Source: a virus
Length of the DNA: 53,283 nucleotides
Strand: one strand, 5' to 3'
Virus record (IMG/VR): IMGVR_UViG_3300032053_000104
Coordinates: 1-53,283 of that record
The position numbers and the translations under genes were made by a program. Of the stretch, positions 33,856 to 37,433 are shown piece by piece. The notes under the pieces were generated by a model. It ran no database searches, was not told where the DNA came from, and was given only the letters and a program-made list of their open reading frames with translations. How positions within the stretch are numbered: the first letter of the stretch is position 1; every line of letters begins with the position of its first letter.

Positions 33856-33966
33856 ATTCACAAGAAATGGATCACAGATCGAGAACAAGATATATGGTTT
33901 GCTGAAAACAGTTTGAAACTCATAAGAATTACAGACGCGGAATTTAAAAACGGGAGACGATTATGA
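33856..33966 (+). CDS. Candidate 36-aa ORF with non-standard start, Vsr/DUF559-like fragment
   Basis: Between the primase and gp47 a frame is open from 33820 to the TGA at 33964-33966, which overlaps the gp47 ATG as ATGA, the usual sign of coupled genes. It lacks ATG, GTG or TTG; AUU at 33856 has AGGAG (33841-33845) about 10 bases upstream. The product would begin HKKWITDREQDIWFAE and continue LKLIRITDAEFKN, which fits the C-terminal half of Vsr/DUF559-fold nucleases ('H......D..RD..L...g~~viR~t..ev'). The N-terminal half with its catalytic acidic residues is absent. It could be a remnant of a homing nuclease, a real small protein, or chance. Confidence 0.3.
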   Translation: MHKKWITDREQDIWFAENSLKLIRITDAEFKNGRRL

Positions 33967-34625
33967 AATGTGTTCATATGGCAGATATTCATTGGAGGGG
34001 AATGGCGCGCCACAAAGAATATCGAGAAGCATTCACTAAGTGTTTCGCACAGCTAAACGCAATAAATCCTGATATCATCTATATTGGCGGCGACATTGTT
34101 CATAGCAAGACACAAGGAATATCACCAGAGTTGATTGAAAATTTGGCGTGGTGGTTTACAGAATTAGCAAAAATTGCGCCTACACATGTTATTCTTGGAA
34201 ATCACGATGGCATTCTTACTAATGAAGATCGTCAAGACACAATTACACCCGTAATTGAAGCACTTAATAATCCAAGAATAACGCTTTATAAGCAGAGCGG
34301 CCTTTATCCAACTGGCATAAAGGGCTTTAATTGGGCAGTTTTTTCATGTTTTGATGAAAAATCATGGAAAGATGTCAAACCACGCTTGGGCGATGTCAAT
34401 ATTGCCTTATTTCATGGTGCTGTCTGGGGATCAATGACAGATGCTGATTGGAAGCTAGAGGGCGAAACAGACGTCAAATTTTTTGATGGTTATGATATGG
34501 TAATGCTTGGAGACATACACAAAATGCAAAGTGTCGGCAGCAAAGAAATTGAAATCATTATTGATGAAAAAGATTTGTACCTTTATCCCGACGCAGTTAT
34601 TTTAGAAAAAATAGATGATATTTGA
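33963..34625 (+). CDS. 47: gp47-like (SbcD/Mre11) nuclease, N-terminal catalytic part only
   Basis: A 220-residue calcineurin-type metallophosphoesterase with all five metal-binding motifs: ADIH (D8, H10), GGDIVHS (D44), LGNHD (N80, H81, D82), LFHG (H151) and LGDIHK (D184, H186). T4 gp47 has 339 residues. Here homology stops just after the last motif, and the last 28 or so residues (from GSKEIEI to EKIDDI) do not look like gp47. The missing piece, starting around PHAYYSGSVIQQNHGE, is found at the N-terminus of the next-but-one gene, fused to gp46, in the same reading frame about 310 bases downstream. The two parts probably reassociate to form the recombination nuclease, but this is inferred. 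Confidence 0.8.
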   Translation: MKCVHMADIHWRGMARHKEYREAFTKCFAQLNAINPDIIYIGGDIVHSKTQGISPELIENLAWWFTELAKIAPTHVILGNHDGILTNEDRQDTITPVIEALNNPRITLYKQSGLYPTGIKGFNWAVFSCFDEKSWKDVKPRLGDVNIALFHGAVWGSMTDADWKLEGETDVKFFDGYDMVMLGDIHKMQSVGSKEIEIIIDEKDLYLYPDAVILEKIDDI

Positions 34626-34839
34626 TTTATTCATAATAGAATATGAATTTCAAGGAAAGAAAAAGAAATATTTTCCTGACTTTGCAATAACATACAATGA
34701 CAAGATATGCATAGAAGAAGTCAAGGGATGGGTTCAAAAAAACGATCAAGAAAAGTTTAATATAAAGTGCAAAGCTGCTTTTGATTTTTGTTTTAAAAAC
34801 AGCTTAGTATATGTTATTAGCTTCATGAAAAGGAAATAA
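34615..34839 (+). CDS. Mini PD-(D/E)XK nuclease ORF inserted within gp47
   Basis: A 74-residue ORF in another frame, overlapping the end of the gp47 N-terminal fragment by 11 bases. Its core KKKYFPDFAITYNDK, then CIEEVKGW, carries the PD...ExK catalytic pattern (PDF at about 21-23, E-V-K at about 36-38), followed by a Lys/Phe-rich helix and a terminal strand (LVYVISF). It corresponds to the ORF at 29661 and to phage DUF1064/TnsA-like nucleases reduced to the central sheet. It occupies the break in gp47, as a homing endonuclease gene would. The ribosome-binding site is weak. Whether so small a protein is active alone is doubtful; dimerisation or a remnant state are both possible. Confidence 0.55.
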   Translation: MIFDLFIIEYEFQGKKKKYFPDFAITYNDKICIEEVKGWVQKNDQEKFNIKCKAAFDFCFKNSLVYVISFMKRK

Positions 34840-34841
34840 AT

Positions 34842-37433
34842 TTGGCAAAGTTAAAAATTAGATTTAAAAAGCCGCATGCATATTATAGTGGTAGCGTTAT
34901 ACAACAAAATCATGGTGAATCAATTGACAAGGGCTTTCTTGTTTGGAATATAAGAAGCCGTGATGACTTTGATGTTGATTTTCACGTTGTAGAACCTGTT
35001 CACCCTTACGTAACGATAGACTGGAAGGGTAATGTTTCTTCAACTGCGGCTCAGGCAAATAATTTCCCATTGGGATCAAGAATTAGAGTTAGATCAAATG
35101 AGGCAATTCACAATGTTGAATGGAAGCAACTAAAAAGCGAACTCGAAAAAACATTTAATGCAGAAGAAGTTGTATCTAAGAATGAACTTGATGCAGACGT
35201 TAAAAAGATTAAAGCGGGTGATGTCGCACTCATGAAGGATGACTTGCGCGACCCTGATACTATGATTGGCATTTTAAATCGTTACTTTGAATCAGAAAAA
35301 GCAACTCCAGAAGAGATGAAGTCGCTTGAATCTGTCGTAAGAGAAACGGTTAAAGCAGCAGCAAAAGATGATGATGTTACGCACGGATCAAAGTGGTCAA
35401 TTAAAAAATTGGAATTTGATAACACATTCATTTATGGTGCAAATAATGTTATCGATTTTCATTCACTTCCGGGTATAACGGGTATCTTTGGTAAAAATGC
35501 TAAAGGAAAATCATCAATCGTCGGAACGCTGATGTATACGCTTTTTAACACAACAGATAGAGGCGCAGTAAAGAATCTTTTTGTTATTAATGCAAGAAAG
35601 AATTACTGTCTTTCAAAGGCAACTGTTGAAGTTAATGGTGAAACATACAGATTTGAAAGACAAACTGTAAAGCATGAAGAACGAGATGGATCTGATGGCG
35701 CTTTGACAAATTTGAACATATTAAGAGTTGACAATGAGGGAAACGTTGTTGAAGATCAAAGCGCAGAACAGAGAAAAGTTTCTGAAACAGTTATAAGAAA
35801 TAAAATCGGTTTAGCAGAAGATTTTCTTTTAACAAGCCTTGCATCGCAAGGAGAAATGAATGCGTTTATTTCTAAAAAGAACACTGCAAGAAAGGCAATT
35901 CTCACAAGATTCTTGGGACTTGATATTTTTGATCGAATGTCAGAGCACCTGCGCGACGAAAGCAAAATCCTTCAGACGCAAATGAAGAAGTTTCCTGATC
36001 GCGATTGGGACGCAATGATAAAAGACAAGCAGGATGAAATTACGAATGCAAATGAAAGAATTGAGCAAATTCAGCAGTTGCTTTTAACGTATCGAGAAAA
36101 AGAAAAGAATGAACAAATAAAACTTCATACAAACTTCCCAGATACAGATAAAATTGTTACGCAGACAGAAGTAGATGATCAAGAAGACGCTGTTATAAGA
36201 ATGCAAAATAAGTTCTCTGCAACAGAGAACAATATTAAGAATGTTAATACAGAAATAGAGAAGATTCGTTTTGATCAATCAGAATTGTCTTCTTTAAAGT
36301 CAAAAATTGACATTGACGCACTCCGCTCGTCTGCAAATTCGCTTAGAGAAATTGAGAAAACACTTGTCAATTTAAAGCACGCACACGAAAAAGAGCTAAC
36401 AACGCTAAAGGGACAAGAGCGATCAGTTGAAAAGTTAAATGAAGTACCTTGCGAAGATTTGTTCCCAACGTGTAAATTCATTAAAGAATCTCATGAAAAT
36501 AAGCTTAAGATTAATGAGCAAAGACAGAAAGCAACTGATACACTTACACAAGTGAATGAAATTCATAAAAGCATTGAAGAACTTAAATTGCTTGATATCG
36601 ATAATCAAATTGACATGTATAACACATACACGTCAAAGGCAAATGTTTATTCTTTGTTATTAGCAAAAAAAGAATCAGAAGCAGTACAGCTTGCAGCGAA
36701 CAATATCGTTCTGCAGACAAAAATTGATGCTGCAAAAAATGAACTTGATGCGCTTAAGAAACAAATAATTAGCGAAGTTGTTAATGAAGAAATTACTAAG
36801 ATGAAGCAGAGCCTTAAGAATCTTCGCAATAAAATTACTGAAATTGATGCAGAGCAGCTTATGATTGCAAGTAGAACGGGCGCATCTATGAATACGATTG
36901 TTGCGCTTGAAGCAGAAAAGTTAACATTTATTGAAACAAAATCAAAATGGAAAATTTATGAATTGTTGATGGGTGCTGTATCTAAGCGCGGCGTACCTTT
37001 GCAAATCATCATGTCACAATTGCCCGCGATTAATGCAGAAATTGCTAAAATTCTACAAAATGTAGTAACATTTACTGTTGAGCTCGAAGCAGACATTAAT
37101 TCAAATGAAATGGATGTATTTATTAACTACGGTGATTCTAGAAGAATTATTGAAGTTGCGTCTGGCATGGAAAAAATGATTGCATCTCTTGCAATACGTG
37201 TAGCGCTTATCAATGTTTCTTCATTGCCAAAAACAGATATGTTGATTATTGATGAAGGCTTTGGCACACTTGATGATACAAATGTTGAAGCATGTAATAG
37301 ATTACTCTTATCACTTAAGAAGTGGTTTAGAAGCATACTGATTATTACACATATTGATGGCGTCAAAGATGTTGTTGACAACGTTATAGACATAACAAGT
37401 GAAGGTTTAGATGCAAGAGTCGTTTATGAATAA
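34842..37433 (+). CDS. 46: gp47 C-terminal domain fused to gp46 (SbcC/Rad50-like ATPase)
   Basis: An 863-residue protein; T4 gp46 has 560. Residues about 9-180 are the C-terminal capping part of gp47 (YYSGSVIQQNHGE, KGFLVWNI). The gp46 part starts at about 184 with KWSIKKLEFDNTFIYG. Walker A is GIFGKNAKGKSS (about 214-225), the ABC signature is near ASGMEKMIASLAIRVAL, and Walker B/D-loop is MLIIDEGFGTLDD. Long coiled coils flank a hook in which the cysteines are spaced C537-x6-C544 (CEDLFPTC) rather than C-x2-C. The start is TTG 34842 with AGGAAA upstream. It works with the gp47 fragment in double-strand break end processing. Confidence 0.85.
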   Translation: MAKLKIRFKKPHAYYSGSVIQQNHGESIDKGFLVWNIRSRDDFDVDFHVVEPVHPYVTIDWKGNVSSTAAQANNFPLGSRIRVRSNEAIHNVEWKQLKSELEKTFNAEEVVSKNELDADVKKIKAGDVALMKDDLRDPDTMIGILNRYFESEKATPEEMKSLESVVRETVKAAAKDDDVTHGSKWSIKKLEFDNTFIYGANNVIDFHSLPGITGIFGKNAKGKSSIVGTLMYTLFNTTDRGAVKNLFVINARKNYCLSKATVEVNGETYRFERQTVKHEERDGSDGALTNLNILRVDNEGNVVEDQSAEQRKVSETVIRNKIGLAEDFLLTSLASQGEMNAFISKKNTARKAILTRFLGLDIFDRMSEHLRDESKILQTQMKKFPDRDWDAMIKDKQDEITNANERIEQIQQLLLTYREKEKNEQIKLHTNFPDTDKIVTQTEVDDQEDAVIRMQNKFSATENNIKNVNTEIEKIRFDQSELSSLKSKIDIDALRSSANSLREIEKTLVNLKHAHEKELTTLKGQERSVEKLNEVPCEDLFPTCKFIKESHENKLKINEQRQKATDTLTQVNEIHKSIEELKLLDIDNQIDMYNTYTSKANVYSLLLAKKESEAVQLAANNIVLQTKIDAAKNELDALKKQIISEVVNEEITKMKQSLKNLRNKITEIDAEQLMIASRTGASMNTIVALEAEKLTFIETKSKWKIYELLMGAVSKRGVPLQIIMSQLPAINAEIAKILQNVVTFTVELEADINSNEMDVFINYGDSRRIIEVASGMEKMIASLAIRVALINVSSLPKTDMLIIDEGFGTLDDTNVEACNRLLLSLKKWFRSILIITHIDGVKDVVDNVIDITSEGLDARVVYE

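Follow-up and report, generated by a model that had tools for sequence, protein, structure and literature searches.

Why is gp47, the DNA-repair nuclease of this virus (the Mre11/SbcD of phages), encoded by two separate ORFs with a nuclease-like ORF placed between them, and by what means could the two parts still act as one enzyme? In the window (here meaning the whole 53,283-nucleotide stretch that was analysed), a RuvC-like resolvase and a primase are followed by three consecutive ORFs of 220 aa (33963-34625), 74 aa (34615-34839, in another frame) and 863 aa (34842-37433, TTG start), and a T4-type terminase is found further on in the 53-kb record. The locus contains the following features:

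33963-34529, plus strand: N-terminal half of gp47 (N-half), Mre11/SbcD phosphoesterase domain, residues 1-189 through LGDIHKMQ (PF00149, phrog_100)
34530-34622, plus strand: acidic C-terminal tail of the N-half, SVGSKEIEIIIDEKDLYLYPDAVILEKIDDI, with the stop codon at 34623-34625; without counterpart in intact relatives, kept in about 41 split ones, and seen in AlphaFold2 predictions
34615-34839, plus strand: putative homing endonuclease remnant, comprising only the C-terminal PD-(D/E)XK (TnsA-like) part, assigned from similarity to the LR756508 nuclease
34830-34834, plus strand: possible Shine-Dalgarno-like AAGGA for the C-terminal half (C-half), within the last codons of the nuclease remnant, read from the sequence
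34842-34874, plus strand: basic N-terminal head of the C-half, (M)AKLKIRFKKP, with TTG start; of the head type found in all split relatives, and predicted as a strand by AlphaFold2
34875-35393, plus strand: gp47 capping domain and probable gp46-binding helices, from alignment with the gp47 C-terminal portion of uninterrupted fusions; the fused model of a relative resembles SbcD/Mre11 structures
35394-37433, plus strand: gp46 (Rad50/SbcC ATPase) in in-frame fusion to the C-half of gp47, boundary approximate (Pfam AAA_23 and SbcC_Walker_B; phrog_77, E 3e-49)

The 220-aa ORF matched Pfam Metallophos (PF00149, E 3e-14) and the SbcD-like phrog_100, contained metal motifs of calcineurin-like phosphoesterases (DIH, GD, GNHD, FHG and GDIH) and shared 62-65% identity with the corresponding region of uninterrupted gp47-gp46 proteins. 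The 863-aa ORF aligned with the C-terminal part of gp47 and matched AAA_23 (PF13476) above and SbcC_Walker_B (PF13558) below the Pfam cut-off, as well as the SbcC-like phrog_77. The former is the phosphoesterase domain of gp47/SbcD/Mre11, and the latter is the gp47 capping domain fused to gp46/SbcC/Rad50. Coordinates, Pfam and PHROGs thus agree with a preliminary description of this DNA, which placed gp47 in two ORFs around a PD-(D/E)XK ORF in another frame and the remainder of gp47 in frame with gp46. Its statement that the phosphoesterase part ends at LGDIHK has to be corrected, as LGDIHKMQ is followed by 31 further residues which constitute a conserved tail. A read-through gp47 fusion in the window was excluded, several stops being present after the N-half in its frame.

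The N-half is an ORF of its own with metal-binding motifs through GDIH, and could on these grounds be taken for an independent phosphoesterase, the gp47 function being lost or supplied elsewhere. We consider this extremely improbable, because in every split locus where the sequence covers both sides the capping-gp46 half directly follows the N-half and starts at one and the same point, both halves are conserved, and the joined halves of one relative (L213) fold as SbcD.

An uninterrupted gp47-gp46 protein was found in Microcystis phage Mel-JY01 (1066 aa) and in a 735-kb uncultured phage, and the arrangement of the window recurred in a 484-kb uncultured phage (LR756508, locus L002) with a 305-aa nuclease in the gap. 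Scans of viral_contigs with alignment queries yielded 160 loci (the window C-half as a single-sequence query gave no match there, whereas an alignment query did), and of all loci collected by then 150 IMG/VR loci were intact gp47-gp46 genes and a handful were split at one shared place. A search with a DNA pattern of the tail gave 54 loci with about 48 split gp47 genes, some of them found before. The non-redundant set comprised 39 split and 135 intact loci, or about 41 split ones when L221 and L426 are included; these numbers depend on the search design and do not represent frequencies. In all of the approximately 41 split loci the break lies in the loop directly after GDIHxxQ, an agreement far beyond chance, and DNA alignment of split with intact close relatives showed the insert to lie after YLGYRE and before KKPW of the uninterrupted protein. 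An ancestral gp47-gp46 fusion, entered by a cassette at one point, had been proposed in the preliminary description along with a search for uninterrupted relatives; Mel-JY01 and some 150 IMG/VR loci (about 135 non-redundant) bear out the fusion, and the alignment (between YRE and KPW, just past GDIHxxQ) the single point of entry.

The gap between the halves holds a full nuclease, a remnant, another small ORF, or nothing at all, in which case stop and start overlap by 4 nt (L117, L120 and others). A nuclease is missing from the majority of split loci. In L166/L188/L205 and in L194, the gp47 halves are separated by small unrelated ORFs that do not appear to be nucleases, as if the gap had become a settling place for other genes.

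Removal of the interruption after transcription or translation, by a group I/II intron or a split intein rejoining gp47, would be consistent with the shared frame of the window halves and with the frequent association of phage introns and inteins with endonucleases (PMC3653736). Nevertheless, Rfam gave no match to an intron core, either in the window region (E up to 5) or in six split relatives (E up to 0.1), and no Hint/intein domain was detected by Pfam in either window half. An intron would also have no space in many relatives, where the stop codon of the N-half and the start codon of the C-half overlap. Moreover, the frames of the two halves differ in many split relatives; the preliminary description was right that the window halves share a frame, but this is a coincidence. 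Post-transcriptional or post-translational rejoining is therefore very unlikely, and the prediction of separate catalytic and capping/ATPase polypeptides stands. Neither of the two outcomes named beforehand as speaking against a split gp47, an independent 220-aa enzyme or an intron, appeared: the C-half follows wherever the sequence covers both sides, and Rfam returned no intron for the window or the six split relatives.

As for the ORF in the gap, its 74 aa matched Pfam Tn7_TnsA-like_N at E 1e-5, slightly short of the curated cut-off, and, over 65 aa, showed 40% identity (E 4e-16) to the C-terminal end of the nuclease that LR756508 has at this site. This 305-aa protein consists of zinc ribbons (recognised by eye) and a TnsA-like domain. 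In both genomes the nuclease ORF shares its first 11 nt with the end of the N-half, and the window ORF keeps D22 and E35-x-K37. From this match and the identical overlap, the most plausible reading of the window ORF is a homing endonuclease of the TnsA-like PD-(D/E)XK type that has undergone an internal deletion but retains its catalytic residues, and a similar internal deletion was observed in L187 relative to L009. What had been called a mini-nuclease is thus indeed nuclease-derived, but appears to be a decayed relative of a homing endonuclease of about 305 aa and not a special small enzyme. Full nucleases occupy the split in L002, L009, L186, L221 and L426, and remnants in the window and L187. 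The full nucleases are of different types: VSR-like in L009, L186 (by eye) and L221, TnsA-like in L002, and HNH-like in L426 (motif by eye). The L009 nuclease matched homing endonuclease PHROGs, and when its relatives were scanned, the tail and head were seen at gp47 only. Since it has been lost in most split relatives, the nuclease is dispensable.

The constant part of the split loci is instead a pair of short peptides. At the end of every split N-half lies an acidic tail of about 26-36 aa, of the form EIEIDEdDLxKYPGAEVI or of a GW form, some positions of which were set by the search pattern, although the first eight split relatives are independent of it. Every split C-half begins with a basic head of about 11 aa of the MxKxIKIRxKRPW type, which was not part of the pattern that yielded most split loci, so that all heads are independent of it. 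Mean charge (39 loci) was -6.6 for the tail and +4.9 for the head, compared with +0.4 for the short, nearly neutral loop which intact gp47 has at the split point in place of a tail. In a mostly nuclease-free clade, pN/pS was 0.36 for the tail, 0.50 for the head and 0.24 for the catalytic domain, indicative of purifying selection on both peptides. Exact DNA patterns of tail and head were confined to the gp47 split site in viral_contigs, an HMM of all tails gave no convincing match outside gp47, and no tail-like locus was present among the matches listed when bacterial and archaeal genomes were scanned with the tail pattern.

Structure predictions point to what the peptides may do. AlphaFold2 was run on single chains joined through stop codons, and pairing was read from secondary structure and confidence. 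In L213, a relative whose halves share a frame and were modelled across the intervening stop, a strand (189-201), a helix (202-207) and a second strand (212-217) are followed by a head strand (223-235), with pLDDT of 91-95 over residues 191-230, and the joined halves matched SbcD/Mre11 structures (E 3e-13). When the window halves were connected through about 75 out-of-frame residues, themselves predicted with low confidence, the same strand-helix-strand was predicted for the tail (pLDDT about 85-92) and a strand for the head at 296-304 (tail and head strands about 76-92), and the model matched viral Mre11-like proteins in BFVD. According to these models, the oppositely charged tail and head probably clip the gp47 halves together; as single chains favour proximity, the pairing itself is no more than suggested by them. 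The best BFVD fold matches of the window model came from giant viruses (Klosneuvirus, Tupanvirus) and were Mre11-like proteins. A Megavirus 'hydrolase' of 233 aa matched it over only 155 columns, with 34% identity, and might possibly be split as well.

How the split was acquired can be approached from its distribution. The split might be ancient and vertically inherited, with homing endonucleases invading an existing gene boundary later and the tails and heads arising without them; the absence of nucleases from most split loci, the presence of different nuclease types at one boundary and a clade of 20 rows which is entirely split are in line with this. However, split and intact genes alternate within a group of close relatives, a single split clade was rejected by the maximum-likelihood tree (AU p = 0.0004), and the wider tree required nine changes between the split and intact states, a count in which gains and re-fusions are indistinguishable. 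The window itself groups with L186, its nearest relative, whose nuclease is VSR-like and not TnsA-like, and with the nuclease-free L192, and this clade is surrounded by mostly intact fusions. Furthermore, among L191, L009, L187 and L185, phages which include ones retaining a nuclease or its scars, identical residues shared the same codon in 84-100% of cases in tail and head compared with 43-52% in the gp47/gp46 flanks (p down to 3e-11). A-rich heads could inflate this synonymous identity, but pairs with L189 and L199 showed little or no excess, so the excess elsewhere does not reflect a general codon constraint. We therefore regard an ancient vertical split as unlikely. The excess synonymous identity, together with the scattering of split genes over the tree, suggests that tail, nuclease and head moved together; on this sequence evidence, tail and head recur in many lineages and appear to be transferred between phages. 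The nuclease cassette envisaged in the preliminary description did enter gp47, but the mobile unit apparently also includes the coding tail of the N-half and the head of the C-half.

Taken together, we find it quite probable that the window carries a decayed homing cassette in a once single gp47-gp46 gene, which supplies non-covalent docking tags that outlast the nuclease; gp47 would thus be made as two proteins because a homing-nuclease element was once inserted in its gene. The homing endonuclease gene would have entered the loop directly after GDIH, the last metal-binding motif of gp47, and provided the interrupted gene at once with a stop and a new start. An acidic tail (strand-helix-strand) would thereby be added to the N-half and a basic head (a strand) to the C-half. 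Neither RNA nor protein splicing would be involved in bringing the two polypeptides together; tail and head would pair as additional beta strands that clip the phosphoesterase domain onto the ATPase-fused capping domain. Tail, nuclease and head could be copied as one into an empty site. The split being stable once in place, the nuclease would then be free to decay (as in the window and L187) or to disappear (as in most relatives), while tail and head would remain. The sequence comparisons show the common split point, the tail and head with their excess synonymous identity, the intact relatives, the remnants and the non-monophyly of split genes; for physical docking, nuclease activity and active homing, we infer their occurrence from these comparisons.

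Whether the locus represents a wider class of selfish elements seems to us an evenly balanced matter. Such elements would invade essential genes without intron or intein and carry their own pair of oppositely charged docking peptides, derived at least partly from a homing-endonuclease module, transferable and common to unrelated nuclease families, which would keep the split enzyme working long after nuclease loss. If so, a well-studied single case (Aeh1 nrdA) would become a recurrent splicing-free way for mobile genes to reside in essential genes. All stages are found side by side, i.e. empty site, full nuclease, decaying nuclease and nuclease gone, which suggests a route from selfish insertion to a fixed two-subunit enzyme. 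Tail and head may together constitute a compact, naturally occurring tag for protein assembly, and with the Mre11 nuclease separated from cap and ATPase, their coupling could be studied in trans.

Several known systems resemble this arrangement. A fractured gene with a split intein, reportedly described in a 2009 study cited in PMC3653736, is said to consist of two parts of an essential phage gene that are separated by a VSR-like endonuclease gene. A VSR-like nuclease likewise lies between the gp47 halves in L009, L186 and L221, but gp47 is split without an intein, its short tail and head containing no Hint domain. In Aeh1 nrdA, the parallel drawn in the preliminary description, tails from the mobile element reportedly mediate assembly, as found by Crona et al. 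in 2011. This parallel is of the right kind as far as its defining features could be tested: uninterrupted homologues exist, a homing-endonuclease gene is present at the break (in the window a remnant only), and there is no self-splicing intron or intein at the gp47 split; the parts may also assemble into an active enzyme, to which conservation, charge and single-chain models point indirectly. The differences are that i) the target is gp47-gp46 and not nrdA, ii) the nucleases are zinc-ribbon VSR-like, TnsA-like or HNH-like and not MobE, and iii) the gp47 tail and head recur in many lineages, appear mobile between phages and outlive the nuclease. In the Aeh1 locus, nrdA-a/mobE/nrdA-b, an essential enzyme gene is interrupted by the gene of a free-standing homing endonuclease and yields, without splicing, two jointly active polypeptides (PMC2988022, PMC3653736). 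T4 gene 60/mobA and phage 25 gene 43A/43B are likewise replication genes of essential function in which the break coincides with a homing endonuclease or a short insert, and the phage 25 products 43A and 43B co-purify and are active; these concern other genes and sites, with no common tail/head system described (PMC2988022). In the literature searched, no report of a split phage gp47/SbcD was found. New here are the gp47-gp46 target, the recurrence at one point, the tail and head common across nuclease types and their persistence after nuclease loss.

Finally, we considered the origin of the tail. The GW-type motif [DE]ExE[LI]ExY[LI]xxGW occurred in viral_contigs at 15 loci, four of them split gp47 genes and 11 GIY-YIG homing endonucleases. 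The latter belong to two families, one member being a fragment, and in one family the module is present as four tandem copies. GIY-YIG homing endonucleases were also matched by an HMM built from GW-type tails, among loci preselected by the motif. These similarities suggest that the tail could derive from a homing-endonuclease module, a source reportedly proposed for Aeh1 too; as the GIY-YIG loci were selected by the motif itself, the relationship is suggestive only. The tandem arrangement is seen in L421 (6474-7235) and near-identical loci, whose GIY-YIG homing endonuclease contains four tandem 'v..eL..YL..GW' modules of about 40 aa, and this module matched no Pfam family at E 0.01. Two further observations were made on the collected genomes. 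A phage protein of L002 (6327-7625) has a C-terminus resembling a Hint/intein-type domain (CFPPHSEVLV ... FVEGILFHNKH). In L226, L238 and L240-L243, another gene, which by its motif we take to be tRNA nucleotidyltransferase-like, appears to be interrupted by a homing endonuclease of the VSR-like type (RFEEDPLRILRFFRF before and SSERIRDE after the nuclease), but has no acidic and basic tags of the gp47 type.
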